Part shown: one piece after another, positions 5,184 through 27,480 of the stretch | How the letters are laid out: each line of letters starts with the position of its first letter | Position numbering within the stretch: position 1 is the first letter of the stretch | Made by a program: the position numbers and the translations under genes | Origin: Rhodobacter calidifons | Lineage (GTDB): Bacteria; Pseudomonadota; Alphaproteobacteria; Rhodobacterales; Rhodobacteraceae | Assembly (NCBI RefSeq): GCF_011174775.1 | Contig: NZ_JAANHS010000001.1 | Coordinates: forward strand, 124,001-188,000 | DNA: 64,000 nucleotides | Reading direction: 5' to 3' | Notes under the pieces: generated by a model | Database searches by the model: none | What the model was told of the DNA's origin: nothing | What the model saw: only the letters and a program-made list of their open reading frames with translations

Positions 5184-6329
5184 TCAGCCGACCCGGTTGC
5201 CCTGCACCCAGACGCCGCGAATGGCGCCCGCCTGACCGATCCTCGCCACCCGCACGATGTCGGCCCGGTGGCCCTCGACAAGCGCCCCGCGGTCGTCAAG
5301 GCCCACCGCCCGGGCCGGCGCGGCGGTGACCGTGGCAATCCCCCGCGCCACGTCGCCCCAGAGGTCCCCCAGCATCAGCGCCGCCGACAGCAGCGACGAG
5401 GGCACATAGTCCGACGACACGATGTCCAGAAGATCAGCCTCGGCCAGGTCCTGCGCCGCGACATTGCCGGAATGGCTGCCGCCGCGGATCAGGTTCGGCG
5501 CCCCCATCATCACCTTGATGCCATGCGCCTGGCAGGCCTCGGCCGCCTCGACGGTGGTCGGGAACTCGGCGAAATGCGCGCCATGCGCGGCGGATTGCAC
5601 CACATGGTCCGGCTCGGTGTCGTCGTGGCTGGCCAGCACCGCACCATAGCGGCGGGCAGCGGCGACGGCGGCGGCCTCGTGCGCCGCCCCCAGCCGCGCC
5701 CGCAGCGCCTTCTGCGCGGCGACATGCGCCTCCCAGTCGGCCTCGGAAATTCCGTATTTGCCGACATAGTAGTCCTTCAGCTTCGAGACATCGCGGAACT
5801 GCCGCGCGCCCGGCGTGTGGTCCATCAGACTGACGATGCCGATCCGGTCCTCGGGGCCGAACTTGTCCAGCTCCTCGATCAGGGTTTCGGAACAGACCTC
5901 GGCCCGCAGGTGCAGGAAATGGCTGATCTTCAGGGCGCCACCCGCGCGCAGGCCCAGGATCTCGTCGGCCAGCGCCCGGGCATATTCGCCATAGTTCATC
6001 CTGGTGTTCGACACGACCGACCCCACCCGCAGCGCGTCGAAGACCGTGGTGATGCCGACGCTGGCCAGCTCGGCGTCATGCGCGATGATCGCGGCGGCAT
6101 GCGGCCAGTCCACCTTGGGACGCGGCTGGATATGGCGTTCCAGGTTGTCGGTGTGGAGCTCGATCAGCCCCGGCATCACCAGGTCGCCGCCGCAGTCCAC
6201 CGCGCCGTGGGGCACGCCCGTACCCTCGGCAATGTCCTGGATGCGGCCATCGACAACGCGCAACTGCCCGCGCAGGGTTTCGGTCGGCAGCACCAGGGTC
6301 GCGTTGGCCAGGATCGTCTCGGTCGTCAT
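5184..6329 (-). CDS. phnM: PhnM, ribose-1-methylphosphonate-5-triphosphate diphosphatase
   Basis: PhnM is an amidohydrolase-fold enzyme of the C-P lyase pathway. It removes pyrophosphate from the triphosphate ribose-alkylphosphonate intermediate to give the substrate of PhnJ. The 381-residue protein carries the metal-binding HTDNLERH motif at residues 59-66 and a conserved HDD segment in the middle. It is transcribed away from the DUF1045 gene, and the 94-base gap between them carries a Pho-box-like repeat. It is separated from the main phnG-N operon by that gene, an arrangement seen in other alphaproteobacteria. Confidence 0.94.
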   Translation of the reverse strand: MTTETILANATLVLPTETLRGQLRVVDGRIQDIAEGTGVPHGAVDCGGDLVMPGLIELHTDNLERHIQPRPKVDWPHAAAIIAHDAELASVGITTVFDALRVGSVVSNTRMNYGEYARALADEILGLRAGGALKISHFLHLRAEVCSETLIEELDKFGPEDRIGIVSLMDHTPGARQFRDVSKLKDYYVGKYGISEADWEAHVAAQKALRARLGAAHEAAAVAAARRYGAVLASHDDTEPDHVVQSAAHGAHFAEFPTTVEAAEACQAHGIKVMMGAPNLIRGGSHSGNVAAQDLAEADLLDIVSSDYVPSSLLSAALMLGDLWGDVARGIATVTAAPARAVGLDDRGALVEGHRADIVRVARIGQAGAIRGVWVQGNRVG

Positions 6330-6372
6330 GTCATGCTCTCTTGTCTTGCGGTCCGTCTGCGGCTGGCGTCTG

Positions 6373-6390
6373 CTGACACAGATCCGTCAC
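6373..6390 (+). promoter_or_regulatory. Candidate PhoB box between phnM and the DUF1045 gene
   Basis: Two 7-mers, CTGACAC (6373-6379) and CCGTCAC (6384-6390), start exactly 11 bases apart, matching the Pho-box pattern of CTGTCAT-like heptamers with four-base spacers. The site lies in the short gap between two divergently transcribed phosphonate genes and could serve both. Binding is inferred from the pattern and from the known PhoB control of phn genes. Confidence 0.7.
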
Positions 6391-6423
6391 GCGCAAGTGA
6401 CAATCGCCCGCTAGGCCCCGCCC

Positions 6424-7104
6424 ATGGACCAGATGAAACGCTTCGCCGTCTACTATGCTCCGCGCCCCGGCGCCCTCGCCGATCGCGCGAATGAATGGCT
6501 CGGCCGCGATCCGGCCACCGGCCGGACGCTGACCCAGCCCGATCTGCCGGGCCTGCCCGCAACCGCCACGTTCACCGCCGACCCGCGCCGCTACGGATTT
6601 CACGGCACGATCCGCGCGCCCTTCCGGCTGGCCGAAGGCGTGACGCCCCAGGCCGCCGCCGCCCATGTCGCCGCACTGGCCGCGCGTCTGGCGCCCGTCA
6701 CCTGCGAAGGCCTGCGGCTGGAGAACCTGCACGGCTTCCTCGCCCTGACCCCCGAGGGCTGCGAGGCGGCCCTTCTCGACCTTGGCGCTGCGGTGGTCGA
6801 GGGCACGAACGCCCTCCGCGCCCCCCTGACCGCGGCCGAGATCGCCCGCCGCCGCCCCGAAACCCTCACGCCCCGCCAGCGCGACCTGCTGCACCTTTGG
6901 GGCTATCCCTATGTGATGGAGGAATTCCGCTTCCACCTCACGCTGACCGACCGGCTGGCCGATCCCGCCCCGGTGATGGCGGCGCTTGCCGCGCATTTCG
7001 CCGACGCCCTGCCCCGGCCCTTCCAGATTCAGGACCTGTGCCTTTTCGGCGAGGATGCGGACGGCCACTTCCATCTTCTCCACCGCTATGCCCTGACCGG
7101 CTGA
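6424..7104 (+). CDS. DUF1045 / 2H-phosphoesterase-like phosphonate metabolism protein
   Basis: The 226-residue protein matches the phosphonate-operon DUF1045 family. It has two short histidine motifs about 100 residues apart, FHGTIR near residue 60 and FHLTLT near residue 173, the layout of 2H phosphoesterases, which act on 2',3'-cyclic or related phosphodiesters. In C-P lyase clusters such a protein may process cyclic ribose phosphates left by PhnJ/PhnP chemistry. No phnP-like gene is visible in this window, so it may fill that step. It converges on phnN with a 19-base overlap. The reaction is inference. Confidence 0.85.
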   Translation: MDQMKRFAVYYAPRPGALADRANEWLGRDPATGRTLTQPDLPGLPATATFTADPRRYGFHGTIRAPFRLAEGVTPQAAAAHVAALAARLAPVTCEGLRLENLHGFLALTPEGCEAALLDLGAAVVEGTNALRAPLTAAEIARRRPETLTPRQRDLLHLWGYPYVMEEFRFHLTLTDRLADPAPVMAALAAHFADALPRPFQIQDLCLFGEDADGHFHLLHRYALTG

Positions 7105-7625
7105 AGCGCGGCCAGAAGCCGCGCGGTGCCGATCTCGGGACTGGCATCGTTCACCACCGTCTGGAAGGCGATCCCCGGCGGCATCTCGAAGGCGGCCCGG
7201 GACAGCCTTGCGCGGATGTCCTCGGCGCTTTCGCGGCCCCGCGCGGACAGGCGGGCCGCCAGAACGATGTCGGGTGCCGTCACCAGGATCACCCGCAGGC
7301 CCGGAAAGACCCGGACGGCCTCGGGCAGCGCGGCGCGGCTGCCGTTGAAGATCACCGCGACCGGACCTTCGACCTCTGCCCTCGGGATACCGTAGGACAG
7401 GCCATGCGCCTCCCAGGTCAGCGCAAAGGCGCCCCGGTCGCGGCGGCGGGCGAACTCGTCCTCGGTGACGCCCTCGAACTCCTCGCCCCCGGCCTCGGAG
7501 GGCCGGGTGATGACCCGGCGCACCAGCCGCAGGTCGGGCCGCGCGGCCAGCGCACCGCGAAGCAGCGTGTCCTTGCCCGCCCCCGAGGGCCCGACCACGG
7601 CAAAGATGGCCGGCACCAGGCTCAT
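7086..7625 (-). CDS. phnN: PhnN, ribose 1,5-bisphosphokinase
   Basis: PhnN phosphorylates ribose 1,5-bisphosphate to PRPP, the salvage step after C-P bond cleavage. The 179-residue guanylate-kinase-like protein has a P-loop GPSGAGKDT at residues 12-20. Its ATG overlaps the phnL stop (ATGA), which fixes the start; longer upstream reading in the same frame is phnL shadow. It is the last gene of the phnGHIJKLN run and overlaps the end of the DUF1045 gene on the opposite strand. Confidence 0.93.
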   Translation of the reverse strand: MSLVPAIFAVVGPSGAGKDTLLRGALAARPDLRLVRRVITRPSEAGGEEFEGVTEDEFARRRDRGAFALTWEAHGLSYGIPRAEVEGPVAVIFNGSRAALPEAVRVFPGLRVILVTAPDIVLAARLSARGRESAEDIRARLSRAAFEMPPGIAFQTVVNDASPEIGTARLLAALQPVRA

Positions 7626-8305
7626 GCCGCGACGCTGGGCGTGAAGCCGGTGACGTCCACCAGCCGGTCGCAGACGCGCGCCCGGGCGGCCTCGTCGTGG
7701 AAGATCCCCAGGATCGCCGCGCCGCGCGCCTTGGCTTCCTCGATCAGGCCCAGCACCACCTCGCGGTTGGCGGCATCCAGGCTGGCGGTCGGTTCGTCCA
7801 GCAGAAGCGCCGGATAGGCATGGGCAAAGCCCCGCGCGATGTTGACCCGCTGCTGCTCGCCGCCCGAGAAGGTGGTGGGCGACAAGGGCCAGAGCCGTTC
7901 GGGGATGTTCAGCCGGGACAAGAGCGCCGCGGCCCGGTTCCGCGCCTCGGCGGCCGGGATGCCAAGGGCCAAGAGCGGCTCTGCCACCACATCCAGCGTC
8001 GGCACGCGGGGGACGACGCGCAGGAACTGGCTGACATAGCCCAGCGTTTCGCGGCGCAGCCGGATGATCTCGCGCGGAGAGGCCCTTGCCACATCGACCC
8101 CGGCGACGATCAGGCTGCCCGAGGCCGCCAGGTAATTGCCATAGACCATCCGCATCAGCGTGGACTTGCCCGCCCCGGACCGGCCGACAAGGCCGACACA
8201 TTCCCCGGGCGCCACGGTCAGCGCAGCACCCGCCATCACCGGGATCACCGCGCCGCCCTGGTTGTGCAGGGTAAAGCTCTTGGCCAGATCATGCACCTCG
8301 ATCAT
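7622..8305 (-). CDS. phnL: PhnL, ABC-type ATPase of the C-P lyase complex
   Basis: PhnL is an ABC-fold ATPase that works with the C-P lyase core complex and PhnK rather than with a membrane transporter. The 227-residue protein has Walker [10 protein letters not shown] (41-49), signature FSGGEQQR (146-153) and Walker B LLLDEP (167-172). The start at MIEVHDL was chosen because the longer frame runs into a family A repeat that lies between phnK and phnL. Its stop overlaps the phnN start. Confidence 0.93.
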   Translation of the reverse strand: MIEVHDLAKSFTLHNQGGAVIPVMAGAALTVAPGECVGLVGRSGAGKSTLMRMVYGNYLAASGSLIVAGVDVARASPREIIRLRRETLGYVSQFLRVVPRVPTLDVVAEPLLALGIPAAEARNRAAALLSRLNIPERLWPLSPTTFSGGEQQRVNIARGFAHAYPALLLDEPTASLDAANREVVLGLIEEAKARGAAILGIFHDEAARARVCDRLVDVTGFTPSVAA

Positions 8306-8316
8306 CGGACGTTCCT

Positions 8317-8364
8317 TCATCTGTCCAGAAATATCCCGGGGGGTGCGGGGGGCTGGCCCCCCGC
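8317..8364 (+). repeat. Family A repeat, copy 2, between phnK and phnL
   Basis: TTCATCTGTCC followed by AAATATCCCGG and a hairpin with arms GCGGGGGG (8345-8352) and CCCCCCGC (8357-8364). It occupies most of the 68-base gap between phnK and phnL, the only sizeable gap in the phnG-N run; all other junctions there overlap. The hairpin could lower expression of phnL-phnN relative to phnG-K or protect the upstream message. Confidence 0.75.
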
Positions 8365-8373
8365 CGCGCCATC

Positions 8374-9159
8374 TCACACCTGAAGCACGGACGAGACCAG
8401 AAGCTGCGTATAGCCGTGCTGCGGGTCGTCCAGCACCTGGTCCGTCAGGCCCTGTTCGACCACGCGCCCCGATTTCATCACCATCAGCCGATGCGCCAGC
8501 AGCCGGACCACGGCCAGGTCATGGGTCACGATGATGACCGACAGGCCGAGGTCGCGGACAAGCCCGCGCAACAGGTCCAGAAGCCGCGCCTGCACGCTGA
8601 CGTCCAGCCCGCCGGTGGGTTCGTCCATGAACACCAGCCGCGGCGATGTGACAAGGTTCCGTGCGATCTGCAACCGCTGCTGCATCCCGCCCGAGAACGC
8701 ACTTGGCCGGTCGTCGATCCGGTCCGGCGCGATCTCGACCCGGCCCAGCCAGTCCAGCGCCTTGCCGCGGATCTCGCCATAGTGCCGCGCGCCCACTGCC
8801 ATCAGCCGCTCGCCCACATTGCCGCCGGCGCTGACGCCCATGCGCAACCCGTCGCGCGGGTTCTGGTGGACATAGGCCCAGTCGGTGCGCGACAGGCGCC
8901 GGCGGTCGGTCTCGCTCATCGCCAGCACGTCGCGCCCGTCATAGGTGATCCGGCCCAGGTCGGGGCGCTGATGGCCCGCAAGGCAGGACAGCAGCGTGGA
9001 CTTGCCCGAACCGCTTTCGCCGACGATCCCCAGCACCTCGCCGGGATAGAGGTCGAAGGACACATCCGCACAGCCGATGCGAGGGCCATAGCGTTTCGTC
9101 AGACCCTCGACCCGCAAGAGCGGTTGATCCGTCACGGCCATGCGCTCCATCATCGTCAT
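8374..9159 (-). CDS. phnK: PhnK, ABC-type ATPase of the C-P lyase complex
   Basis: PhnK binds the PhnGHIJ core complex and couples ATP use to C-P lyase function. The 261-residue protein has Walker A GESGSGKST (47-55), signature FSGGMQQR (155-162) and Walker B LVFMDEP (175-181). The ATG at 9159 is supported twice: it overlaps the phnJ stop (ATGA) and has GGAGG seven bases upstream. Its ribosome-binding site therefore lies within the phnJ coding sequence. Confidence 0.94.
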   Translation of the reverse strand: MTMMERMAVTDQPLLRVEGLTKRYGPRIGCADVSFDLYPGEVLGIVGESGSGKSTLLSCLAGHQRPDLGRITYDGRDVLAMSETDRRRLSRTDWAYVHQNPRDGLRMGVSAGGNVGERLMAVGARHYGEIRGKALDWLGRVEIAPDRIDDRPSAFSGGMQQRLQIARNLVTSPRLVFMDEPTGGLDVSVQARLLDLLRGLVRDLGLSVIIVTHDLAVVRLLAHRLMVMKSGRVVEQGLTDQVLDDPQHGYTQLLVSSVLQV

Positions 9160-10082
9160 CGCGCGCCCTCCGTCCCGGGCCAAATTCCTTCGAAGGAATT
9201 TGCAAAAGTCTTCGAAGACTTTTGCCCTGCGCCCAACCGACCCGCATGGCCCTTCGCCCGCCGCCCGGCGCAGAAATCGGTGTCGGAACAGACGAACATC
9301 CGCCCCCCCTGATCGTCGGTGATCACCTCGTCCAGATAGCTGTCCTGCGCGCCGCAGAGGTCGCAGTCATGCGGCGCCTTCGAGGTCTCGAACGGGTGAT
9401 CGTCGAAATCGAGGCTGACAACCTCGGTCCAGGGCGGCAGCGCATAGATCCGCTGCTCGCGCCCCGCGCCGAACAGCTGGATCGCCGGATTGCCCGACAG
9501 CTTCGGATTGTCGAACTTCGGGATCGGCGAGGGGTCCATCACATAGCGCCCCTCGACCTTCACCGGATAGGCGTAGCTGGTCGCGATCTGCCCGTGGCGC
9601 GCGATGTCCTCATACAGCTTGACATGCATCAGCCCGTATTCCTCCAGCTCGTGCATCTTCCGCGTCTCGGTCTCGCGCGGTTCCAGAAAGCGCAGGGGTT
9701 CAGGGATCGGCACCTGATAGACCAGGATCTGGCCCGCCTTCAGAGGTGTTTCCGGGATGCGGTGACGGGTCTGGATCACGGTCGCCTCGGTGGTGGCCTC
9801 GGTCGTGGCCACCCCGGCGGTGCGCTGGAAGAAGCGGCGGATCGAGACCGCATTGGTGGTGTCGTCCGCGCCCTGGTCGATGACCTTCAGCCGGTCCTCG
9901 GGCACAAGGCAGGCCGCCGTCACCTGCACCCCGCCCGTGCCCCAGCCATAAGGCATCGGCATCTCCCGGCTGGCGAAGGGCACCTGATAGCCCGGCACGG
10001 CGATGCCCTTCAGGATCGCGCGGCGGATCATCCGCTTGGTCTGTTCGTCGAGATAGGCGAAGTTGTAAGCCTGATCGGTCAT
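9156..10082 (-). CDS. phnJ: PhnJ, C-P lyase radical SAM catalytic subunit
   Basis: PhnJ cleaves the carbon-phosphorus bond of ribose-1-phosphonate-5-phosphate by radical SAM chemistry. The four conserved cysteines fall at 240, 243, 265 and 271, one residue off the well-studied Escherichia coli numbering, and the Gly-rich PGYQVPF region carrying the radical glycine is at 30-36. The protein is 308 residues. Its last 20 or so residues are unusual: residues 287-301 (QKSSKTFANSFEGIW) are encoded by a twin-palindrome repeat. All catalytic parts are intact, so the tail is an addition. Overlaps phnI upstream and phnK downstream by ATGA. Confidence 0.96.
   Translation of the reverse strand: MTDQAYNFAYLDEQTKRMIRRAILKGIAVPGYQVPFASREMPMPYGWGTGGVQVTAACLVPEDRLKVIDQGADDTTNAVSIRRFFQRTAGVATTEATTEATVIQTRHRIPETPLKAGQILVYQVPIPEPLRFLEPRETETRKMHELEEYGLMHVKLYEDIARHGQIATSYAYPVKVEGRYVMDPSPIPKFDNPKLSGNPAIQLFGAGREQRIYALPPWTEVVSLDFDDHPFETSKAPHDCDLCGAQDSYLDEVITDDQGGRMFVCSDTDFCAGRRAKGHAGRLGAGQKSSKTFANSFEGIWPGTEGAR
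9181..9224. repeat. Twin palindrome, family B copy 1, inside the phnJ 3' end
   Basis: Two perfect 22-base palindromes sit side by side with no spacer: 9181-9202 (half-arm CAAATTCCTTC) and 9203-9224 (half-arm CAAAAGTCTTC). The element is read through as the C-terminal tail of PhnJ. Related twin palindromes at 31132-31176 and 35345-35389 lie in gaps between genes. The base composition is much more AT-rich than the surrounding operon. Confidence 0.92.
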
Positions 10083-11269
10083 TCCGCTGCCTCCCGCAGT
10101 GCCGCCGCCTCGGCCCGCAGCTTGCGCACCAGCTCCAGCTCCGCCTGGAAATCGACGTAGTGCGGCAGCTTGATGTGTTCCAGGAACCCCGTGGCCTGGA
10201 TGTTGTCGCAGTGCATCAGGACGAACTCCTCATCCTGTGCCGGGGCGCCGGTGAAATCTTCGCCCAGCTCCTGCCAGCGCAGGGCGCGGTCCACCAGGCT
10301 CATCGCGATGGCCTTGCGTTCCGACTGGCCCATGACAAGGCCATAGCCGCGCGTGAACTGCGGCGGCTCGGTGCGGCTGCCCTTGAACTGGTTCACCGTC
10401 TCGCACTCGGTCAGCTCGATCTCGCCGATCTCGACCGCGAAGCCCAGTTCCGGGATCTCGACCTCGACCGCGACCGTGCCGATGCGCAATTCGCCCACGA
10501 AGGCATGGGTCCGGCCATAGCCGCGCTGGGTGGAATAGGCGAGGCCGAGCACAAACCCCTCATCCCCCCGCGCCAGCGCCTGCAACCGCAAGGCGCGGTC
10601 GGCGGGAAGCTCCATCGGCTCGCGCGTCAGGTCGGGAGGTGTCCGATCGCTCGCCTCGGCGGTCTCGATCAGGCCGTCCCGGTTGAGGAAGCCGGTGACA
10701 TGCGGCAAGCGGGGTGCCCCCCCACCCCATCCCTCCCCCACGCGGGGGGAGGGAGGCGCATCGCTTGCAGCGTCTGGCGGAGCAGCCGGGCCGGGAGCCT
10801 CCCCTCCCCCCGGTGGAAAGGGGATGGGGCTGAGGGGCGCCGCGCCGGTCGGCGGCTCGCCCTCGGCCATCAGCGCGAAGTCCAGCAGGCGGTGGGTGTA
10901 GTCGAAGGTCGGGCCCAGCACCTGCCCGCCCGGCAGATCCTTGAAGGTCGCCGAAATCCGCCGGTCCACCGCCATCGCCCCGGTTGCAACTGGCCGGGAA
11001 GCCGCAAGGCGCGGCAGCGTGGTGCGGTAGGCGCGGATCAGGAAGACCGCCTCGATCAGGTCGCCGCGGGCCTGCTTGATCGCCAGGGCGGCCAGGTCGG
11101 GGTCGTACAGCGAGCCCTCGGCCATCACCCGGTTCACCGCCAGCTTCATCTGTTCGCGGATCTGCGGGATGGTCAGTTCCGGGACCGCAAGGTCGCCCCG
11201 GCGTTCCTCGGCCAGCCACTGGTGCGCATTGTCGATGGCGCGTTCGCCACCCTTCACGGCGACATACAT
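10079..11269 (-). CDS. phnI: PhnI, C-P lyase core complex subunit, with in-frame repeat insertion
   Basis: PhnI forms the core complex with PhnG, PhnH and PhnJ and carries the nucleosidase step that joins phosphonate to ribose at the expense of adenine. The 396-residue protein begins MYVAVKGGERAI; the start overlaps the phnH stop (TGATG). Roughly residues 143-190 are Pro/Gly-rich (for example LSPIPFPPGGGEAPGP) and correspond to a REP-like DNA element at about 10714-10840. The remaining sequence is the ordinary family. The usual length recalled for the family is about 354-370, so the insertion explains the excess. Frame is kept, so the protein is probably functional. Confidence 0.94.
   Translation of the reverse strand: MYVAVKGGERAIDNAHQWLAEERRGDLAVPELTIPQIREQMKLAVNRVMAEGSLYDPDLAALAIKQARGDLIEAVFLIRAYRTTLPRLAASRPVATGAMAVDRRISATFKDLPGGQVLGPTFDYTHRLLDFALMAEGEPPTGAAPLSPIPFPPGGGEAPGPAAPPDAASDAPPSPRVGEGWGGGAPRLPHVTGFLNRDGLIETAEASDRTPPDLTREPMELPADRALRLQALARGDEGFVLGLAYSTQRGYGRTHAFVGELRIGTVAVEVEIPELGFAVEIGEIELTECETVNQFKGSRTEPPQFTRGYGLVMGQSERKAIAMSLVDRALRWQELGEDFTGAPAQDEEFVLMHCDNIQATGFLEHIKLPHYVDFQAELELVRKLRAEAAALREAAE
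10714..10840. repeat. REP-like element, family C copy 1, inserted in frame in phnI
   Basis: A hairpin with arms CCCTCCCCC (10731-10739) and GGGGGAGGG (10745-10753) is followed by a second C/G-rich block (about 10798-10838). Similar hairpins stand in gaps at 40697-40750, 47776-47813 and 62562-62598. The block is near a multiple of three bases long and contains no stop in the phnI frame. Confidence 0.82.
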
Positions 11270-11910
11270 CAGATATTCTCCACACGGGTGGACCTGGGCA
11301 GACCGGCGATCCGGTCGCCGGCGGTGAACAGGCAGTCGAAGCCCAGGGGAAACAGCGCCCGGTTGGCGCGGAAGGCAGCGGTTTCCGGCAGGTTCAGCCA
11401 GGTCGCCGTCTCGATCCCCGGTCCCGTCAGGGCGGGGCCATGGTTCACCAGCCGGTCGCATTCCACGATCAGCGTGGCCGAGCGATCGGGGTAATCCGGC
11501 TGGCCGATCCGGAAGCGCGTGACGGGTTGCAGCGCCTCCCAGCGGCCAAGGGCGAAATCCGCCGTCTCGGCCGGGGCCAGCGGCGCGCCGATGTGAAAGG
11601 CCACCCAGTCCCGCACGGGCGGGCAATCGGCGGCGCCGGCCAGATGCAGCCGCGTGGTGGGATCGCAAAGCACCAGAAGCGCCACCCCCGCCGCGACCGA
11701 CAGCGGCGCGGGGGGCCGGGCACCCGCCACCTTCCGGATGGTGCCGGGACGCGCCATCGCCTCCAGAACCTCGCGGAAGGCGCGGGCCGACTGGACCGGG
11801 GCATCGGCGAAGCCGCCGGACAGGGCCTCGCTCCGGGCCTCGCTCCGGGCCTCGCTCGGGGCCTCGCTCTGGGCCTCGCTCTGGGCTGCGGATGGGGTTG
11901 CGGCGCTCAA
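11269..11910 (-). CDS. phnH: PhnH, C-P lyase core complex subunit
   Basis: PhnH is a dimeric structural subunit of the C-P lyase core. The 213-residue protein starts at TTG, overlapping the phnG stop as TTGA, with GGAGAGG a few bases upstream. The first 30 residues are unusual: they consist of SEA-type four-residue repeats (QSEAQSEAPSEARSEARSEA) encoded by a 12-base tandem repeat. The conserved domain starts at about residue 34 (FADAPVQSARAFREVLEAM) and continues normally to the end. The tail overlaps the phnI start. Confidence 0.93.
   Translation of the reverse strand: MSAATPSAAQSEAQSEAPSEARSEARSEALSGGFADAPVQSARAFREVLEAMARPGTIRKVAGARPPAPLSVAAGVALLVLCDPTTRLHLAGAADCPPVRDWVAFHIGAPLAPAETADFALGRWEALQPVTRFRIGQPDYPDRSATLIVECDRLVNHGPALTGPGIETATWLNLPETAAFRANRALFPLGFDCLFTAGDRIAGLPRSTRVENI
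11823..11882. repeat. 12-base tandem repeat in the 5' end of phnH
   Basis: Five consecutive units of the form GGGCCTCGCTCN (11823-11834, 11835-11846, 11847-11858, 11859-11870, 11871-11882) differ only at the last base. In the phnH frame each unit adds four residues (SEA plus Q, P or R). Such arrays change in copy number by replication slippage, always in frame here. Confidence 0.93.
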
Positions 11911-12350
11911 TTGTCCTCTCCCCGGACCATGGTGAAGAACTCGACCTTCGTCCCGGCGGCCTTCGCGGCGCGGGCCGCGCGGCGCGCCTCGGCCTCGGCC
12001 TGCAAGGGGGCGATCACCCGTGCGGCAAGGTCCGCCGCCGCATCGGTCTGCATCAGCGCGTCGATCACCGCGGCGCGGCGGGCATGGTCCTTGTCGCGGC
12101 CCTGCACCCAGGCATGGCCGACCGGACCGCTGCCCAGCCGGACCGAGCAGCGCGTGACCGTCATCTCGCCCAGGTTGAACGCCGCACCCGTGCCGCCCGT
12201 CCTGCCACGCACCATGACCGCACCCACCTCGGGCGCGCGCAACAGATCATGCGGCGGCAGGCTTGGCATCAGGTCCGCCAGCCGCGCGGGCGGGGCCTTG
12301 GCAAGCGTTGCGATCCAGGCCTTGCGGGCCTCGGCGGAAGATGGGGTCAT
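11907..12350 (-). CDS. phnG: PhnG, C-P lyase core complex subunit
   Basis: PhnG is the small subunit of the PhnGHIJ complex. The protein is 147 residues from the ATG at 12350, which has GAGG five bases upstream; a GTG two codons earlier is a less likely start. Conserved family features include LLRAPEVGAVMVRGR and FNLGEMTVTRCSVRL in the middle. It is the first gene of the phnGHIJKLN run and faces phnF across a 119-base gap with a candidate operator. Confidence 0.92.
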   Translation of the reverse strand: MTPSSAEARKAWIATLAKAPPARLADLMPSLPPHDLLRAPEVGAVMVRGRTGGTGAAFNLGEMTVTRCSVRLGSGPVGHAWVQGRDKDHARRAAVIDALMQTDAAADLAARVIAPLQAEAEARRAARAAKAAGTKVEFFTMVRGEDN

Positions 12351-12386
12351 GGCCACCTCGACATCTGGAAGGGGTTGTCCAATACT

Positions 12387-17232: not shown

Positions 17233-18051
17233 TCACGACAGCAGGGCGTCCGCATAGGCGCGGTCGGCTGTTGTATCGGTGGGGATCGAGGTCGAGGTGG
17301 CGGCCTCGTTGAAGCTTTCGTCGGCGCCGTAGATCTCGCGCGCGACATTGGTCGACAGCATGTCGGGCGTGCCGTCAAAGACGATGCGGCCGTCGCGCAT
17401 GCCGATGACGCGATCGCAGTAGCGGCGTGCGGTGTCCAGGGTGTGGAGGTTGGCGATCACCATGCGCCCGTCCTCAAGATTGATCCTGCGCAGCGTGTCC
17501 ATCACCACCTGCGCGTTCATCGGGTCGAGGCTGGCGATGGGTTCATCCGCCAGGATGATCTTCGGGTCCTGCATCAGCGCCCGCGCGATGGCGACGCGCT
17601 GCTGCTGGCCGCCCGACAGCGCCTCGGCCCGTTTCGGGGCCTGTTCGCTGATGCCGAGCCGGTCCAGGATCTCCAGCGCGCGCAGGATGTCGGCGCGCGG
17701 CCAGAGGTTGAACATGGTCTGAAGGGTGGAGCGGCGGTTCAGGATGCCGTGCAGCACGTTCGAGGCCACGTCCATCCGCGGCACCAGGTTGAACTGCTGG
17801 AAGATCATCGCGCATTGCGACTGCCAGGCCCGCGCCTCGGCACCCTTCAGCGCCAACACATCACGGCCATCGACCCGGATCTCGCCCGAGGTGGCATCGG
17901 TCAGGCGGTTCATCATCCGCAGGAAGGTGGACTTGCCCGCGCCCGAACGGCCGATGATGCCGACGAAGGCCGGGCGATCCACGCTGAAGCTGATGTTGTC
18001 AACCGCGGCCTTCTGGCCGAACAGCTTGGTCACTGCGACAACATCCAGCAT
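17233..18051 (-). CDS. phnC: PhnC, phosphonate ABC transporter ATPase
   Basis: The 272-residue ATPase drives phosphonate import. Walker A is GRSGAGKST at residues 34-42, the signature is LSGGQQQR in the middle and Walker B is IILADEP. The ATG at 18051 has a GGGGGA ribosome site six bases upstream. A C-terminal extension of about 25 residues (from [13 protein letters not shown]) is not part of the ATPase fold. A four-unit Pho-box-like array lies 44-83 bases upstream. Confidence 0.93.
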
Positions 18052-18094: not shown

Positions 18095-18134
18095 GTGACA
18101 GCTGGCGAAAACCGGGATGAAGCTTCTGTGACGG
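18095..18134 (-). promoter_or_regulatory. Candidate PhoB box upstream of phnC
   Basis: Reading toward phnC, four heptamers start 11 bases apart: CCGTCAC (18134-18128), GCTTCAT (18123-18117), GTTTTCG (18112-18106) and CTGTCAC (18101-18095). The first, second and last resemble the CTGTCAT Pho heptamer; the third is poor. The position 44 bases before the phnC start suits an activator site. It also suggests that phnC-phnD-phnE has its own promoter despite the genes upstream on the same strand. Confidence 0.7.
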
Positions 18135-18154: not shown

Positions 18155-19084
18155 CTACCAGCGGACGTGCGCGGGCCAGACGAAGGTCTCGTCCGGGTCG
18201 GGGATCGCGGGGCCGGCCAGCGCCATGCAGCGCCGGCGCAAGGTCGCGGCGATCTCGTCGCGCGGCACATGGGCCAGCATCTCGGACGTGACCGGCGCGC
18301 CGAGCGTCATTTCCAGCGGGCGCCCCATGCGGCGGCGGGTCTCGTGGAAGATCAGCGCCACGCGCAGGGGATAGGAGGTGTGGCTGGCGATCTGGAACAG
18401 GCGCGAGTTCTGCCCGGCGACATGCACCGGCAGCGTGGTCACGCCCGGCAGCGTGGCCAGCCGCCCCACGAAGGGGTGCCAGGGCGAATCGACCGCATGG
18501 CCCCGCAGCGGCCGGTTCGCCGTGGCGACGCCGCCGCCCGGAAAGACCGCCACCACCTTGCCCTCGGCCAGCAGCTGCGCCGCCTTGCGCCGGGTCTCGG
18601 CCGTCAGCCGCCGCGCCTCGGGCGTGCCCGAGAAATCCACCGGCAACAGATGCGGGTCCACTTCCGGCACCCGGCAGAGCAGGCTGTTGGTCAGGATCCG
18701 CACGTTGCCGCGCAGCCGCATCCCCAGCCAGCCCAGCGCCAGCCCGTCCAGCACCCCGAACGGATGGTTCGCCACCAGAAGCAGCCCGCCCTCGGGGCGG
18801 ATGCGCTCCTGCTCGGCCTCGTCGGCATGGACCCGCACCGCCACCCGCATCAGCCGCAGCGCGGCGTCGAACACGCTTTCCCCCGACCGCTTGCCCGACC
18901 GCGCCCAGTCCAGATACAGCCGCTCCAGCTTCGGCTGGCCCGACAGCCGTTCCACCGTGCGGATCAGCCGGCGGCGAAAGGCGGACTGGTCGGGGTGCGA
19001 ATAGGTGAAGCGCACCGGCTCGGCCGGGGTCTCGTCGAAGAAGGGGCTGGGTTCGGCAGGCAGGGGCAGCAGGTCGGTCAGCAT
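18155..19084 (-). CDS. PlsC-type glycerolipid acyltransferase
   Basis: The 309-residue protein has the acyltransferase block NHPFGVLDG (residues 106-114, the N-H-x4-D catalytic motif) and the glycerophosphate-binding FPGGG motif (181-185), which define the PlsC/lysophospholipid acyltransferase family. A GGAGG site precedes the ATG. It follows the second phnM-like gene by 31 bases and precedes phnC, so it probably belongs to the phosphonate-linked transcript. Its substrate is unknown. A link to lipid change under phosphate shortage, for example an OlsA-like step, is possible but is inference. Confidence 0.85.
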
Positions 19085-19115
19085 CGGGAAACCTCCGGGC
19101 AGCGGTTCGGCCCAG

Positions 19116-20357
19116 TCACGGGGCGGGTTCGAGGTGGGGCGCCGGGATCGCCGGCAGCGCGGAATAGCCGCCGCGCCCGGCAATCCAGGTCCGCAGCGGA
19201 GCGGGGGCATGGCCTTCCGGCCAGTCCAGCAGCACCAGATCGGCCCGCAGGCCGGGCGCGATGCGGCCCCGGTCGGCAAGGCCCATGGCGCGGGCGGGGT
19301 TGGCCGAGACCAGCCGCCACAGCACCGGCAGGGGCGCCACGCGGTCGGCCGACAGCCGCGCCACCGCGCCCAGCATGGCCGGATAGAAGTAATCCGAGGC
19401 CAGGATGTCGCACAGGCCCCGCGCGATCATCTCGGCCGCACCCGGGCTGCCCAGATGGCTGCCCCCGCGCATCGCATTCGGCGCGCCCAGCACGATGGCA
19501 TCGCCCGCCGCGCGCGCGGCATGGAACACCCGTTCGTGCATCGGGAACTCGGCCACCCTTGCGCCCAGCGCGCGGTAATGGGCGCGCGTCTCGACCTGGC
19601 TGTCGTCATGGCTCAGCATCGGCGCCCCGTGCCGCCGGGCCAGCGCCGCCAGCCGTTCGATCTGCCGCGGCACCTCGGCCCGGCGCTCCCAGACCCGGGC
19701 GATCAGCGCGGCATAGGCCTCCGCCGAGATCCCCGCGCGGCGCGACTGGTCGGCCATCTTCTTCAGGAAGCGCGGCGCGTCGAAGGGCGTCACCGGATAG
19801 TCCGGCACCTGGTCGAAGGGCCGGTCGTGCAGCGCCACGTCGGGATGCAGGAGCATCGCACTGGTGTGGTCGTTGAAGGCCAGCGCGGGACGGTCCGCCT
19901 CGGCCAGCACCTGCGCGATCAGGGGTTCCGCCTCGGCGCAGAAGGTTTCCCAGCGCAGCTGGATGCGGTTGTCCGCGGTCAGGCGCGGGCGCAGCGCCGC
20001 CAGCGCGTGGACGACCTGCCAGCCGGTCTCGACACTGCGCAGGCCCGGCTCCCAGCTCAGCGTCAGCGCATGATAGGCCGTGCCGATCCCGTTCGCGGCA
20101 AGCTGGCGGTCGGTCTCCAGCATGGCGGTCTCGACCGGCACCGTGACGCCGGGGCGCGGCATGATCTGGCGCTCGAAGGCGTCGCCATGCACATCCACGA
20201 AGGCCGGCGCCAGCACCCGGCCCCGCCCCGGCACCACCGCCGCCCCGTCGCGCGCCACGTCGATCCCGGTGATCCGGCCGGCCTCGATGCGGACCGAGGC
20301 GGTCTCGACCCGATCCTCCAGCACCACCCGCGCGCCTTCGATCAGCTCGGCGCTCAT
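19116..20357 (-). CDS. PhnM-like amidohydrolase, second copy
   Basis: The 413-residue protein is an amidohydrolase related to PhnM. The motif near residue 57 is HGDAFERQ instead of the HTDNLERH of the phnM at 5184-6329, and the MPRPGV that follows matches the PRPKV of PhnM. Other shared blocks include the LSHDD segment and GAPNAMRGGSHLGS. It differs enough that it may act on another phosphonate triphosphate or related substrate. Start and stop overlap its neighbours (ATGA with the methyltransferase), so it is firmly within the second phosphonate module. Confidence 0.85.
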   Translation of the reverse strand: MSAELIEGARVVLEDRVETASVRIEAGRITGIDVARDGAAVVPGRGRVLAPAFVDVHGDAFERQIMPRPGVTVPVETAMLETDRQLAANGIGTAYHALTLSWEPGLRSVETGWQVVHALAALRPRLTADNRIQLRWETFCAEAEPLIAQVLAEADRPALAFNDHTSAMLLHPDVALHDRPFDQVPDYPVTPFDAPRFLKKMADQSRRAGISAEAYAALIARVWERRAEVPRQIERLAALARRHGAPMLSHDDSQVETRAHYRALGARVAEFPMHERVFHAARAAGDAIVLGAPNAMRGGSHLGSPGAAEMIARGLCDILASDYFYPAMLGAVARLSADRVAPLPVLWRLVSANPARAMGLADRGRIAPGLRADLVLLDWPEGHAPAPLRTWIAGRGGYSALPAIPAPHLEPAP

Positions 20358-21022
20358 CCCAGCCGCTCCGCCAGCAGGTGCCAGTGCCAGGAGCCCGGCT
20401 TTTCATGCGGCCGGTCGAAGAGGGTAAGGACCTCGAAGCCCCAGAGCAGCGACAGCAGGTCCGGCGCGGTGCAGAAGTAATGCGGATGCACCTTGTCGCC
20501 CGGGCCTTCGAAGACCCAGGTGTTGCGGCTGATCTCGCGGCCCGGCGCGCGGGCCTGTTCCACCGGCAGGCGGCGGGCCGACAGCATGGTGGCCAGGAAG
20601 GTGCCGCCCGGCCGGGTGACGCGGGCCACCTCGGACAGGGCGCGGCGCACCACGGCCTCGTCGCCATGGTAGATCACGTTCCAGGCCAGGACGTGATCGA
20701 AGCTGGCATCGGCAAAGGGCAGATCGGTCATCGGCGCCTCGACCGTCTCGATGGTCAGGCCCTTCGCGAAGGCCGCCGCCGCGATGGCCGCGACCGCAGC
20801 CTCCGCCGCATCCAGCGCCGTGACCCGGTGCCCCGCCTCGGCCAGGGCCAGCGCATGGCGGCCGATCCCCGCCCCCAGGTCCAGGATGCGCGCGCCCGAG
20901 GGCAGCGTCGAGGCATGGTCCATCACCCAGGGCTCGGGGATGGCCCAGGGCGAGGACCCGTCGGACTTCTGCCATTCGGCGTTCCAGTAGCGATGTGCGG
21001 TGTCGGTGGTCATCTTGTTCAT
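20354..21022 (-). CDS. Class I SAM-dependent methyltransferase in phosphonate module
   Basis: The 222-residue protein has the class I motif LDLGAGIGRH at residues 47-56, the acidic strand end ALDAAE, and the post-II/III region of methyltransferase type 11/25 families. Its ATG overlaps the permease stop and its own stop overlaps the PhnM-like start, so it is translationally coupled on both sides. A methyltransferase is not part of the standard C-P lyase pathway. The methyl acceptor cannot be read from the sequence; an aminophosphonate, phosphonate ester or lipid head group would all fit the context. Confidence 0.85.
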   Translation of the reverse strand: MNKMTTDTAHRYWNAEWQKSDGSSPWAIPEPWVMDHASTLPSGARILDLGAGIGRHALALAEAGHRVTALDAAEAAVAAIAAAAFAKGLTIETVEAPMTDLPFADASFDHVLAWNVIYHGDEAVVRRALSEVARVTRPGGTFLATMLSARRLPVEQARAPGREISRNTWVFEGPGDKVHPHYFCTAPDLLSLLWGFEVLTLFDRPHEKPGSWHWHLLAERLG

Positions 21023-21822
21023 ATCAGCTTCCTGCGGATCCAGCCCGAGCCCTGCTCGACGGCGATGACCAGCGCCAGCAGCATCAGGATGATCGCCAGC
21101 GCCTCGTCATAGTTGAACAGGTCGAAGGCGACCTTCAGGTCCACCCCGATCCCGCCCGCGCCGACCAGGCCCAGCGCGGCGGACCCGCGCACCGATTTCT
21201 CCAGCGCGAAAAGCGAGGTGGCGGTGAAACTCGGCAGGCAGGCGGGCAGCACGGCCGACCCGATGATGCCCAGCCGGCTGGCCCCGATCGCGCGCAGCGC
21301 GTCCTGCGGGCCGGGGTCGGTCTCCTCCATCGCCTCGGCGAAGAAGCGGCCGGCAAAGCCGATCTTGTCCACCATGATCGCAAGCACCCCGGCGGCGGGG
21401 CCAAGGCCGACGATGATGATGAAGATGATCGCCCAGACCAGATCGGGCACGGTGCGGAACAGCGCGATCACCGCGCGCGCGACGGTGCGGACCAGGGGAT
21501 GCGGCGACAGCCGGTCGGTCGCCAGGATCGCGAAGGGCAGCGCGAAGATCAGGCCCAGGAAACAGCCCGCAACGGCCATCTGCAAGGTCTCCAGCAGTTT
21601 CCAGGAAATCGGCCCGATGCGGCTGAAATCCGGCGGAAACATCTGGGTGAACAGGCCCGAGGGCGCGAAAAGCCGCGTCAGCCCCCGCGCCAGCTTGTCC
21701 ATCGTCGGGGCCGTCGCCGCCAGCGACGAGACGACCAGCGCCCCCACCACCAGCAGCCCGACATAGCCCGGCAGGCCGATCTGGCGAAAGCGCGGCGGGG
21801 CGGGAAGGCTCGCGTCGCTCAT
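21019..21822 (-). CDS. PhnE-like ABC permease of the second phosphonate module
   Basis: The 267-residue inner-membrane protein has about six membrane helices and a PhnE-type coupling segment (FFAEAMEETDPGPQDALRAIG), with GAGGIGVDLK near the end as in PhnE proteins. It is coupled by ATGA overlaps to the ATPase upstream and the methyltransferase downstream. The only binding protein nearby in its operon is the PhnD-like gene at 22630-23496, so the substrate is probably a phosphonate, phosphite or similar phosphorus compound distinct from that of the first importer. Confidence 0.88.
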   Translation of the reverse strand: MSDASLPAPPRFRQIGLPGYVGLLVVGALVVSSLAATAPTMDKLARGLTRLFAPSGLFTQMFPPDFSRIGPISWKLLETLQMAVAGCFLGLIFALPFAILATDRLSPHPLVRTVARAVIALFRTVPDLVWAIIFIIIVGLGPAAGVLAIMVDKIGFAGRFFAEAMEETDPGPQDALRAIGASRLGIIGSAVLPACLPSFTATSLFALEKSVRGSAALGLVGAGGIGVDLKVAFDLFNYDEALAIILMLLALVIAVEQGSGWIRRKLI

Positions 21823-22622
21823 GCTGCGGCCTCATGGTCGAAGAAGCGCCGCAGTTCGCCGGCGCTGGCCGCGGGCGTGGGCATGTCCAGCGCGATGCGG
21901 CCCTGCGCCAGCCCGAGGATGCGGTCCGAGAAGGCCAGCGTATGCTCCAGCCGGTGCGAGATCACCAGCAGCGACAGCCCGTCCTGCCGCACGAGGCCAA
22001 GCAGCAGCTCCATAACCTCCTGCCCGGTCTGCGGGTCAAGGCTGGCGTCGGGTTCATCCGCCAGGATGAACTCGGGCCGCTGCATCAGCATCCGCGCGAT
22101 GGCGACGCGCTGGCTCTGCCCGCCCGACAGGCTGTCCACCCGGGCCAGCGCCCGATCGGCCAGGCCCACGCGGGCCAGACAGGCCATGGCCTCGGCCCGC
22201 ACCTGCGCCGGAGCCAGCGCCTGGGTCCAGACCCGCGGCCCCGACATCCGCGCCTGCGCGCCATGGATCACGTTCGACAGGGCCGAGAGGCGCGGCACCA
22301 GGTTGTGCTTCTGCCAGACGATCCCCACCCGCGCCCGGAACCGCCGCAGCGCCCGCGGCGACAAGGCCCCGACATCCTGCCCCAGCATCAGCACCCCGCC
22401 CGACGTCGGCTCAACCAGCCGCACCAGGCAGCGCAGCAGCGTGGACTTGCCCGATCCGTTCGCCCCGATCAGCGCCGTGGACTGACCCGGAGCCAGCGCG
22501 AAATCGACCCCCCGCAGGATCCCGGTCCCGGCAAAGGCCTTGGTCAGCCCCTGAACGGCAAGGACCGGCTCCACCAGGGTGGAACCGGCCTCGGCCCGGA
22601 CAGGAAGGACTGGAGCGTTCAC
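21819..22622 (-). CDS. PhnC-like ABC ATPase of the second phosphonate module
   Basis: Walker A is GANGSGKST at residues 53-61, the signature LSGGQSQR and Walker B FILADEP follow. The family is that of PhnC. The 267-residue call begins at GTG 22622, seven bases after the stop of the binding-protein gene; a GTG 16 codons later (22574, before EPVLAVQGL) is an alternative start because no strong ribosome site precedes the first. It is overlapped by the permease gene. Confidence 0.87.
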   Translation of the reverse strand: MNAPVLPVRAEAGSTLVEPVLAVQGLTKAFAGTGILRGVDFALAPGQSTALIGANGSGKSTLLRCLVRLVEPTSGGVLMLGQDVGALSPRALRRFRARVGIVWQKHNLVPRLSALSNVIHGAQARMSGPRVWTQALAPAQVRAEAMACLARVGLADRALARVDSLSGGQSQRVAIARMLMQRPEFILADEPDASLDPQTGQEVMELLLGLVRQDGLSLLVISHRLEHTLAFSDRILGLAQGRIALDMPTPAASAGELRRFFDHEAAA

Positions 22623-22629
22623 CGCGGTC

Positions 22630-23496
22630 TCACTGCCCGACGAATTCGGTGAATTCCTTGATGCCGATGTTCTCGTACATCCTGCGCACCACGTCATAGT
22701 CGGCGTCGGTGACCGCGGCGTTGAAGCTGCCGCCGATGTATTTCGCGTTCTCCTCGACCGAGGTGATCGCGGCAAGAAGGGTCTCGCCCTGTTCGGCAAA
22801 GGTCCTGCGCACGGTCTCCACCACCTCGGGCGCGACCCTGGACGAGGCCAGAAGGATGTCGTCGGGCAGCTGTTCCCCCTTCAGCAGGACGCGCAGCTTC
22901 ACGTCGGGGAGTTTCTTGGCCATGCTCTCGATATGGGTCCGGTTCAGACCGATCGCGCCGATGTCGCCCGCGATCAGCGCCTCGACGGCGACGTTGCGGT
23001 TCAGGAAGACGGGCTCGTAATCCACCGCATAGGTCAGCCCCGCCTTGGCCAGCAGATCGACCGGGCCAAGGTGCTGCGAGGTCGAGCCGATCTCGCCGAA
23101 CGAGATCTTCATCCCCTTCAGATCCGCCGGGTCCTTGACCGGGCTTTCGTCCAGGACGACCACGTTGGAATAATAGTCGGGCCGTGCGAAGGTGACGACC
23201 GGCTGCGCATCCAGCCGGGCGTTGAACACCACATATTCCGCCGGGCCGGTCAGCACGAAATCCACCTGGTCGGCGGCCATCGCCTCGACCGCGACGGTGC
23301 GGCCCGAGACCGGGAAGAATTCGACCTTCAGCCCCGAAGCGGCCTCGAAGGCCTCCTTGAACGGGCCCATGTCGCGCTGAAGCTGCTCCAGCCCGTCGAT
23401 GTCGGTGACGGCAAAGCGGATGGTCTCGTCCGCGACCGCGGGGGCGGCGAAGGCAAGGCTGGCGGCCAGAAGGCCCGAGGCGAGCAAGCGGTTCAT
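22630..23496 (-). CDS. PhnD-like phosphorus-compound binding protein of the second module
   Basis: The 288-residue protein has a signal peptide (about residues 1-22, ending AAPAVA) and the PhnD/SsuA-type fold, with AADQVDFVLTGPAEYVVFNAR in the first lobe and SFGEIGSTSQHLGP in the hinge region. It is clearly divergent from the PhnD at 16296-17198, which suggests another ligand. It is the first gene of a six-gene run (binding protein, ATPase, permease, methyltransferase, PhnM-like, acyltransferase) and has a four-unit Pho-box-like array just upstream. Confidence 0.88.
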   Translation of the reverse strand: MNRLLASGLLAASLAFAAPAVADETIRFAVTDIDGLEQLQRDMGPFKEAFEAASGLKVEFFPVSGRTVAVEAMAADQVDFVLTGPAEYVVFNARLDAQPVVTFARPDYYSNVVVLDESPVKDPADLKGMKISFGEIGSTSQHLGPVDLLAKAGLTYAVDYEPVFLNRNVAVEALIAGDIGAIGLNRTHIESMAKKLPDVKLRVLLKGEQLPDDILLASSRVAPEVVETVRRTFAEQGETLLAAITSVEENAKYIGGSFNAAVTDADYDVVRRMYENIGIKEFTEFVGQ

Positions 23497-23545
23497 GACA
23501 TGGATCCTGTCGATGCAAGCGATGGGTCTCGCTTAGCAGAGGCCG

Positions 23546-23585
23546 GTGACAACCAGGCGACGCGTAGGTTACAGTCCTGCGACAG
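23546..23585 (-). promoter_or_regulatory. Four-unit candidate PhoB box upstream of the second phosphonate module
   Basis: Reading toward the phnD-like gene, four heptamers follow at exactly 11-base steps: CTGTCGC (23585-23579), CTGTAAC (23574-23568), GCGTCGC (23563-23557) and TTGTCAC (23552-23546). Each resembles the CTGTCAT unit and the spacing is that of tandem PhoB dimers. It lies 50 bases before the start codon. This is the best Pho box in the window by regularity. Confidence 0.8.
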
Positions 23586-23648: not shown

Positions 23649-24833
23649 ATGACGAAAAACCGCATCCTGTCGCCAGCTCTCGATCCGACGCCCCCGGTCG
23701 ATCCGGCGGCCGAGCGGATGACCTTCACCGTCCTGCCCCGTTTCAACCTCGCCACGCTGATCACCATGATCGAGCCGCTGCGGATCGCGAACTACCTCGC
23801 CTCCCGGCCGCTCTATCACTGGCAGATCCTGTCGCCGGACGGGCCCGAGGTTCCGGCCTCGAACGGCCTGTCGATCGCCGCCGGCCCGCTGGACGACCGG
23901 CCGCGCCGCGGCGAGGCGGTGTTCCTGCTGGCCTCATGGGGGGCCGAGGACTATGCCGGGCGCCCGCTTCTGGCCTGGCTCCGCCGCCTGTCGCGCGAGG
24001 GCGCGCGGCTCTGCGCGGTCGAGCTTGGCGCCTATCCCATGGCGCGCGCGGGCCTTCTGACCGGGCGGCAGGTCGCGGTGCACTGGTCCTGGGCGCCGGG
24101 CTTCCGGGAACGTCACCCCGACATCGCGGTGGTGGAACAGCTGTACACGCCGGCGGAAACCGTGCTGACCTGCGCCGGGGGCATGGCCGGGATGGACCTG
24201 ATGCTGCGCCTGATCGCCGACCGCCACGGCGAAGGTCTGGCGGGAGAGATCGCTGACCAGATGCTTCACCACGGGATCCGCCCGGCCGACGCGCCTCAGC
24301 GCCGCACGCCTGGCCGGGGCACCGACCAGTTCGCCCCGGTCCTGCGTCAGGCCATTGCGCTGATCGAGGCGAACATCGCCGATCCCCTGCCCGTCCCCGA
24401 GATCGCCCGCCGGCTGGGCCTGTCCCAGCGCCAGCTGGAACGCCAGTTCCACCGTGGCCTCGGCTGTTCCGTCGTCCAGTTCGGCACCCTTGTCCGCCTG
24501 CAACATGCCCGCGTCCTGCTGATCGCCACCAAGCTGTCGGTCCGCGAGATCGCCACCGCGACCGGGTTCAACGCGCTGTCGCATTTCGCGTCCGCCTTCC
24601 GCAAATGCTTTGGCCGCCGCCCCAGCGACTACCGCCAGGGCTGGGCGCCGGGCGAGGCCACCCCCTCCTGGCCCGGCACGCTGACCGCCTATCTCGAGAC
24701 GCTGCGCCAGCGCACCACCCGCGCGGTGCGGGACGGGGCCTCCTCGTTCGCCTTCGTCTCCTCGTCGGCGGACCCCGGCGCGGAGAAGCCGCAGGCCTGG
24801 GACGAGCCGCCCGTCAGGCGAAGGCCGGGATGA
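23649..24833 (+). CDS. GlxA-family transcriptional regulator (DJ-1/PfpI plus AraC domains)
   Basis: The 394-residue regulator has an N-terminal DJ-1/PfpI-like domain (about 24-190), in which Glu lies where the amidase Cys would be (LCAVELGAYPMA), and a C-terminal AraC-type double helix-turn-helix (about 234-335, with VPEIARRLGLSQRQLERQF and REIATATGFNALSHFASAF). Relatives regulate betaine, carnitine and other quaternary-amine catabolism, and ligand binding replaces catalysis. The last 25 or so residues are encoded by a family D repeat and are not conserved regulator sequence. It converges with the monooxygenase gene (20-base overlap) and probably controls that catabolic set. Confidence 0.9.
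   Translation: MTKNRILSPALDPTPPVDPAAERMTFTVLPRFNLATLITMIEPLRIANYLASRPLYHWQILSPDGPEVPASNGLSIAAGPLDDRPRRGEAVFLLASWGAEDYAGRPLLAWLRRLSREGARLCAVELGAYPMARAGLLTGRQVAVHWSWAPGFRERHPDIAVVEQLYTPAETVLTCAGGMAGMDLMLRLIADRHGEGLAGEIADQMLHHGIRPADAPQRRTPGRGTDQFAPVLRQAIALIEANIADPLPVPEIARRLGLSQRQLERQFHRGLGCSVVQFGTLVRLQHARVLLIATKLSVREIATATGFNALSHFASAFRKCFGRRPSDYRQGWAPGEATPSWPGTLTAYLETLRQRTTRAVRDGASSFAFVSSSADPGAEKPQAWDEPPVRRRPG
24735..24812. repeat. Family D repeat, copy 1, inside the GlxA-type regulator 3' end
   Basis: The element runs from CCTCCTCGTTCGCCTTCG to GACGAGCCGCCC and is related to those at 28940-29030 and 32434-32512. Outer ends CTCGT and ACGAG pair, giving a long imperfect hairpin. Here it is translated as the regulator's tail (SSFAFVSSSADP and following), and the stop codon comes just after it. 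Confidence 0.75.
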
Positions 24834-25848: not shown

Positions 25849-25867
25849 GTCCTAACTCCCTGAAATT

Positions 25868-27340: not shown

Positions 27341-27480
27341 CGCACCCTCCCGGCTCTTCCCGTTGATGAAGCCGCCTTCCCGCTGACGCTGCCGGAAAGT
27401 CGCCATGGCCTGTCGAAAAATCGAAACACTCAGCCCGCATGGAATGGCACACCGGAACACCACAGCCACCGGACACGCCC

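Follow-up and report, generated by a model that had tools for sequence, protein, structure and literature searches.

A second phosphonate importer with a methyltransferase and a PhnM-family amidohydrolase: a probable variant auxiliary part of C–P lyase gene sets in Alphaproteobacteria

Why should a genome with a complete carbon–phosphorus (C–P) lyase gene set carry a second phosphonate importer, followed by a methyltransferase, a PhnM-like amidohydrolase and a lipid-type acyltransferase? The question is raised by positions 18155–23585 of a 64,000-nt stretch of Rhodobacter calidifons DNA (GCF_011174775.1, NZ_JAANHS010000001.1, positions 124,001–188,000, forward strand; hereafter the window, to which gene coordinates refer). 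A complete canonical C–P lyase set with its own PhnM lies inside the same window, as does the importer C1-D1-E1-E1. The original prediction, made from the DNA letters, treated the six genes as one run serving either phosphonate use or lipid rebuilding in phosphate starvation. Our results reveal two things rather than one: phnD2-phnC2-phnE2-MT-AMH (MT, the methyltransferase; AMH, the amidohydrolase) form one tightly packed unit, which is probably a variant auxiliary part of C–P lyase gene sets, while the acyltransferase gene (ACT) is separate.

All six predicted open reading frames are confirmed, and they are transcribed from the minus strand in the order phnD2, phnC2, phnE2, MT, AMH and ACT. 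Pfam and NCBIfam profiles back their assignment as PhnD-, PhnC- and PhnE-like proteins, a class I methyltransferase, an amidohydrolase and a PlsC-type acyltransferase, and the amidohydrolase does contain the HGDAFERQ motif. The close junctions described as far as the amidohydrolase are also seen, i.e. ATGA overlaps at C2/E2, E2/MT and MT/AMH and a 7-nt gap between phnD2 and phnC2. The single run does not extend to ACT, which stands apart with a start 31 nt past AMH and its own Shine–Dalgarno sequence (GGAGG).

We then compared this unit across genomes. A genome scan returned 79 AMH loci, 58 of them flanked by at least 3.5 kb on each side (full-flank loci); because the scan peptides included DAFERQIM, the invariance of the AMH motif is partly due to selection. 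The D2/C2/E2 importer lies at most 4.5 kb from AMH in 38 of the 58 full-flank loci, MT is present in 27 (none of which lacks the importer) and ACT in 16. Importer and AMH share the same orientation in 46 loci and are divergent or opposite in 13, so that the link has outlived rearrangement. In the family set (35 genomes with the HGDAFERQ DNA pattern and 35 without, compared with statistics that ignore kinship), MT is found in 19 carriers, each time adjoining AMH, and in none of the non-carriers (p = 6e-8). A wider draw recovered MT in 6 of 385 class genomes. Four of these six lie outside the family; AMH accompanies the importer in three of them, and the fourth (locus L157) has importer and MT but lacks AMH. 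Distant Alphaproteobacteria also contain D2C2E2(-MT), be it next to phnGHIJKL, in inverted order or by a second C–P lyase operon, and D2-C2-E2-MT adjoins phnGHIJKL in distant families (L157–L159). The module is common to many Alphaproteobacteria. The importer–MT–AMH set is thus not confined to this strain, and the conserved partnership that a genome-neighbourhood comparison was meant to look for was found, tied to C–P lyase. Solo AMH genes occur in rhizobia, where the neighbours (alr, dnaB, rplI and radA) are housekeeping genes and uninformative.

The tie to C–P lyase is visible in gene content. PhnJ is present in 34 of the 35 family AMH carriers versus 15 of the 35 non-carriers (Fisher p = 3e-7). 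In the remaining carrier (G092), the contig with phnK-phnL-phnM begins within phnK, and this assembly break led us to reject it as an AMH genome lacking C–P lyase. PhnJ was likewise found in all 46 further genomes reached via AMH loci (a few of which are also in the family set of 35), including the rhizobia with solo AMH. Among the genomes sampled, AMH is found only together with C–P lyase. A second, divergent PhnJ is present in about 11 of the 35 family carriers, mostly within about 13 kb of AMH, and belongs to a divergent second C–P lyase operon. This operon was seen at loci L114–L120 and L133 and at the right ends of L077 (15909–17105), L081 and L083, in about eleven Rhodobacterales genomes with the AMH module; its PhnH–M proteins are 26–50% identical to those of the window, and it has its own phnCDEE and a PhnM with the motif HGDMIExE.

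The array upstream of phnD2, read from 23585 to 23545, is CTGTCGCAGGA-CTGTAACCTAC-GCGTCGCCTGG-TTGTCACC in an 11-nt register. We scored Pho boxes as two CTGTCAY half sites spaced 11 nt (maximum 13). Scores of at least 11 occur in 50% of 46 related phnD2 upstream regions versus 0.8% of 3000 random 200-bp windows, and scores of at least 10 in 83% versus 4.4%, respectively. Tandem 11-nt half sites kept in orthologues, by which we recognize PhoB-regulon members, are therefore present upstream of phnD2, and they support the predicted Pho-box-like array and phosphate-starvation control. This suggests that the module is under PhoB control. A PhoB-like regulator gene directly precedes the unit in two loci (L059 and L060), and phnC1 has a weaker Pho-box-like candidate at 18134–18093.

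The importer is of the PhnCDE type, as defined by a PhnE score (phnE2 versus TIGR01097: 253.5 bits, above the cut-off of 216.7) together with a PF12974 protein (phnD2: 124.8 bits). Both phnD2 (70.4 bits to TIGR03431, cut-off 261.1) and phnC2 (229.1 bits to TIGR02315, cut-off 266.1) fall below the PhnD and PhnC equivalog thresholds. The nearest solved relative of PhnD2 is PtxB (5o2j; 77.6 bits, 1e-20). The PhnD2 pocket keeps the STS loop, Tyr108 and Asp213 of Escherichia coli PhnD, each in 46 of 46 sequences; a Tyr and a His of PhnD are replaced in it by Arg66 (44/46) and Arg167 (42/46), respectively. PhnD2 shares the STS loop with the phosphite and hypophosphite binding proteins PtxB and HtxB, but differs from them in its two arginines and in the loss of the capping Tyr and the ligand-binding His of PtxB (pairwise alignments). 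Phosphite import, a candidate raised by the PtxB relationship, was rejected on these pocket residues. The two extra arginines suggest a ligand that is different from, or more anionic than, those of PhnD or PtxB; it is probably a P-oxyanion compound, perhaps with an extra negative charge.

We then focused on AMH. PhnM converts ribosyl-phosphonate triphosphate (RPnTP) to phosphoribosyl phosphonate (PRPn) and pyrophosphate (PPi). AMH scores 370.8 bits against the PhnM subfamily model NF011987 (above its cut-off of 253) and 293 bits against the PhnM equivalog TIGR02318 (below its cut-off of 390.55). In a maximum-likelihood tree, the HGDAFERQ proteins group as a single clade (98/93); a truncated AMH is labelled apart in this tree, some long branches meet and the deep joins are unsure. 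This clade lies outside both the E. coli-type PhnM (PhnM-I) and the PhnM of the second C–P lyase operon (PhnM-II), and AMH-type proteins carry the database name ‘RPnTP diphosphatase’ yet form this separate clade. AMH belongs to the same family as E. coli PhnM and shares its HxD metal motif as well as SHDD and GxPNxxRGxS, but has HGDAFERQ in place of HTDNLERH. AMH keeps each of the 35 positions near-invariant in both PhnM-I and PhnM-II, including H57, D59, D163, H164, H250 and D251 (motifs HxD, DH, SHDD and GxPNxxRGxS). The argument from HGDAFERQ to a different substrate is weakened by these conserved positions, by PhnM-II, which also carries HGDM, and by genus g333 (below); because of PhnM-II, HGDAFERQ alone was rejected as proof of a new substrate. 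The AlphaFold model of AMH (predicted local distance difference test, pLDDT, 93) has an amidohydrolase-superfamily fold, and a fold search returned only allantoinase/dihydroorotase-type amidohydrolases; a sequence search of PDB found no PhnM.

One alphaproteobacterial genus relies on the AMH clade for its only PhnM relative. In two complete genomes of genus g333 (G506 and G679) that contain phnGHIJKL, AMH is the sole PhnM-family protein, and the simplest reading is that it performs the PhnM step there. The g333 loci are L158 (4575–15952) in G506 and L160 and L161 in G679. It is thus possible that AMH catalyses the same step as PhnM. Second phnM copies have been noted in marine genomes (PMC9381506, PMC3840354, PMC5649143), and a second PhnM-like hydrolase, phnM1, is known from Rhodobacterales C–P lyase clusters, e.g. 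B3_TF_MPn_2 (PMC3840354; PMC5649143). Like AMH, phnM1 is an extra PhnM-like hydrolase in a C–P lyase cluster, but it sits between phnE and phnG, whereas AMH lies behind the second importer. This position makes it probable that our clade M1, the sister of the AMH clade, corresponds to phnM1 as described by Martinez et al. 2013 (PMC3840354); M1 is located between phnE and phnG, shows HGDGFER[HQ] in two rows out of three and, like the AMH clade, falls outside PhnM-I and PhnM-II. Identity of AMH with phnM1 was rejected by position and tree.

MT is modelled (pLDDT 89) as a class I S-adenosylmethionine (SAM)-dependent methyltransferase with a His-rich, conserved C-terminal part (HPH[YF][YF]C and HWH); a fold search returned only generic class I methyltransferases, i.e. 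small-molecule types of many kinds. The structural comparisons of MT and AMH thus pointed to no particular substrate. Among the open-access papers covered by our search, none characterised MT, AMH or the PhnD2C2E2 importer. A phnDCE–MTase–C–P lyase island is already known from HIMB59: the passages on fGIphn-A in PMC10734472 (2023) list phnDCE, MTase, hydrolase, 5'-nucleotidase, C–P lyase and phnCDEE, and give the MTase no function. As in the module here, a second phnDCE importer and a methyltransferase stand beside phnGHIJKLM; by contrast, a HAD hydrolase and a 5'-nucleotidase are listed there in place of a PhnM paralogue. Locus L157, from a 1.4-Mb AT-rich alphaproteobacterium, has the HIMB59-type layout, with D2, C2, E2 and MT homologous to those of the window and no AMH. 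PhnO acetylates aminophosphonates, a type of modification known to be protective (PMC3463581). By analogy with PhnO, the likeliest role of MT would be to modify a phosphonate.

Taken together, we favour with moderate confidence the view that phnD2C2E2-MT-AMH is an auxiliary C–P lyase branch switched on by phosphate starvation. PhnD2C2E2 would import a phosphonate bound at its acidic end by the two extra arginines; MT would modify this phosphonate or an intermediate, comparable to PhnO acetylation in E. coli; the compound would then pass through PhnGHIJKL; and AMH would act as a second PhnM, releasing pyrophosphate from RPnTP as a metal-dependent hydrolase, possibly for R groups poorly handled by PhnM. 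Several observations weigh against this proposal: (i) AMH is fixed differently from PhnM-I at 12 positions, although PhnM-II also departs from PhnM-I at most of them and matches AMH at D55 and G58; (ii) a normal PhnM is also present in 40 of 41 AMH genomes (one sample), so that the reaction of AMH may not be the same in all genomes; and (iii) several D2C2E2-AMH loci lack MT and one D2C2E2-MT locus (L157) lacks AMH, so that MT and AMH need not act in series.

Retention of PhnM beside AMH also fits an alternative that we judge unlikely, in which AMH has a new specificity and cleaves the imported phosphonate at an ester, amide or anhydride bond before C–P lyase, so that the operon would unwrap a masked phosphonate and MT would handle the group set free. 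The own clade formed by AMH and its sister M1, the PhnD2 pocket unlike those of PhnD and PtxB, and the HAD hydrolase and 5'-nucleotidase fragment at the same place in the HIMB59-like locus are consistent with it. However, AMH is the sole PhnM relative beside a complete C–P lyase in genus g333, and the core residues common to PhnM-I and PhnM-II are all kept. Strict dependence on C–P lyase and the protective precedent of PhnO would also suit a role in detoxification or metabolite repair, with MT detoxifying toxic phosphonates or C–P lyase side products and AMH clearing damaged RPnTP-like by-products. We regard this as quite improbable, because nutrient use better explains why the operon includes an importer of its own.

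The lipid part of the original prediction fares worst. It would have MT and ACT make or alter lipids with phosphorus-free or phosphonate head groups in low phosphate, and it draws on the Pho box of the island and on ACT being a lyso-lipid-type acyltransferase related to GlsA and the N-terminal part of OlsF. ACT matches both profiles but lies far under both cut-offs (OlsF-N: 108.8 bits, cut-off 620; GlsA: 57.1 bits, cut-off 260) and lacks the GNAT half, and neither family score nor olsB adjacency places it among OlsF/OlsA ornithine-lipid acyltransferases. Eight of 70 genomes, each of them with PhnJ, contain a member of the ACT clade. In four sister genomes (G192, G022, G288 and G156, the contig of the last ending at this stretch), ACT lies directly before phnC1 with no AMH adjoining on the stretch read, and the genome of the sister species G192 contains no HGDAFERQ match anywhere. 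Because ACT adjoins phnC1 without the module in these genomes, it is an island neighbour and not a module step. A canonical olsB-olsA pair is located on another contig and a ubiquitous ACT paralogue on a third; ACT accompanies the module in a minority of full-flank loci, and, in the genomes sampled, MT is never seen apart from the phosphonate importer. We therefore discarded the idea that the six-gene run as a whole serves lipid remodelling and consider a lipid role for MT and ACT very improbable.

If the auxiliary branch exists, the C–P lyase pathway of Rhodobacterales and other Alphaproteobacteria is extended by a distinct importer, a methyl-transferring enzyme and an additional PhnM. A bolder idea, tentative and on balance doubtful, is that bacterial phosphonate catabolism includes a methylation step that has gone unrecognised. 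In a widespread alphaproteobacterial branch of the C–P lyase route, the dedicated MT would methylate the imported phosphonate or its ribosyl intermediate, and the product would be processed by a second PhnM of separate specificity. C–P lyase could then use a class of environmental phosphonate not known among its substrates. Marine phosphonates yield methane and ethylene when cleaved by C–P lyase, and the range of substrates that this enzyme accepts is important in phosphorus-limited waters. The module turns ‘which phosphonate needs extra processing?’ into a testable question.

Table 1. Features of the phosphonate island (positions within the window)
Feature	Position	Strand	Support
PhoB-box-like array upstream of phnD2	23545..23585	−	half-site pair score 11.0/13
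phnD2, periplasmic binding protein	22630..23496	−	Phosphonate-bd PF12974
phnC2, ATP-binding cassette (ABC) ATPase, GTG start	21819..22622	−	ABC_tran/phnC-like
phnE2, permease	21019..21822	−	TIGR01097
MT, class I SAM-dependent methyltransferase	20354..21022	−	Pfam/NCBIfam
AMH, PhnM-family amidohydrolase with HGDAFERQ, likely second RPnTP diphosphatase	19116..20357	−	
ACT, OlsF-N/PlsC-type acyltransferase, island neighbour and not module member	18155..19084	−	
phnC1 of canonical C1-D1-E1-E1 phosphonate importer	17233..18051	−	
Canonical C–P lyase genes	5184..12356	−	
Canonical PhnM, motif HTDNLERH	5184–6329	−	421.5 bits to TIGR02318
Canonical PhnN	about 7086–7650	−	
PhnL, K, J, I, H and G	7622–12356	−	PhnJ 480 bits
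DUF1045 gene within canonical C–P lyase stretch	6424–7104	+	

Several other genes accompany these features. A hexapeptide-repeat transferase lies between phnE and phnG of the window (13171–13845) and is of the same type as the ‘putative transferase’ in marine C–P lyase clusters (PMC3840354). The module is adjoined by a divergent AraC-type regulator, a luciferase-like monooxygenase and an aldehyde dehydrogenase (23649–27469); these neighbours are kept in L040, and the monooxygenase and aldehyde dehydrogenase are also found near AMH locus L103. Genes following AMH vary: a xylose-isomerase-like TIM-barrel gene (PF01261) comes directly or one gene after it in L077 (8927–10069), L078, L081 and L083; a major facilitator superfamily (MFS) transporter is directly 3' of it in L078 and L082; and a gene judged by eye to be MttB-like (trimethylamine methyltransferase) follows it in L049, L050 and L052 and, about 5 kb downstream, in L066 (10749–12260).

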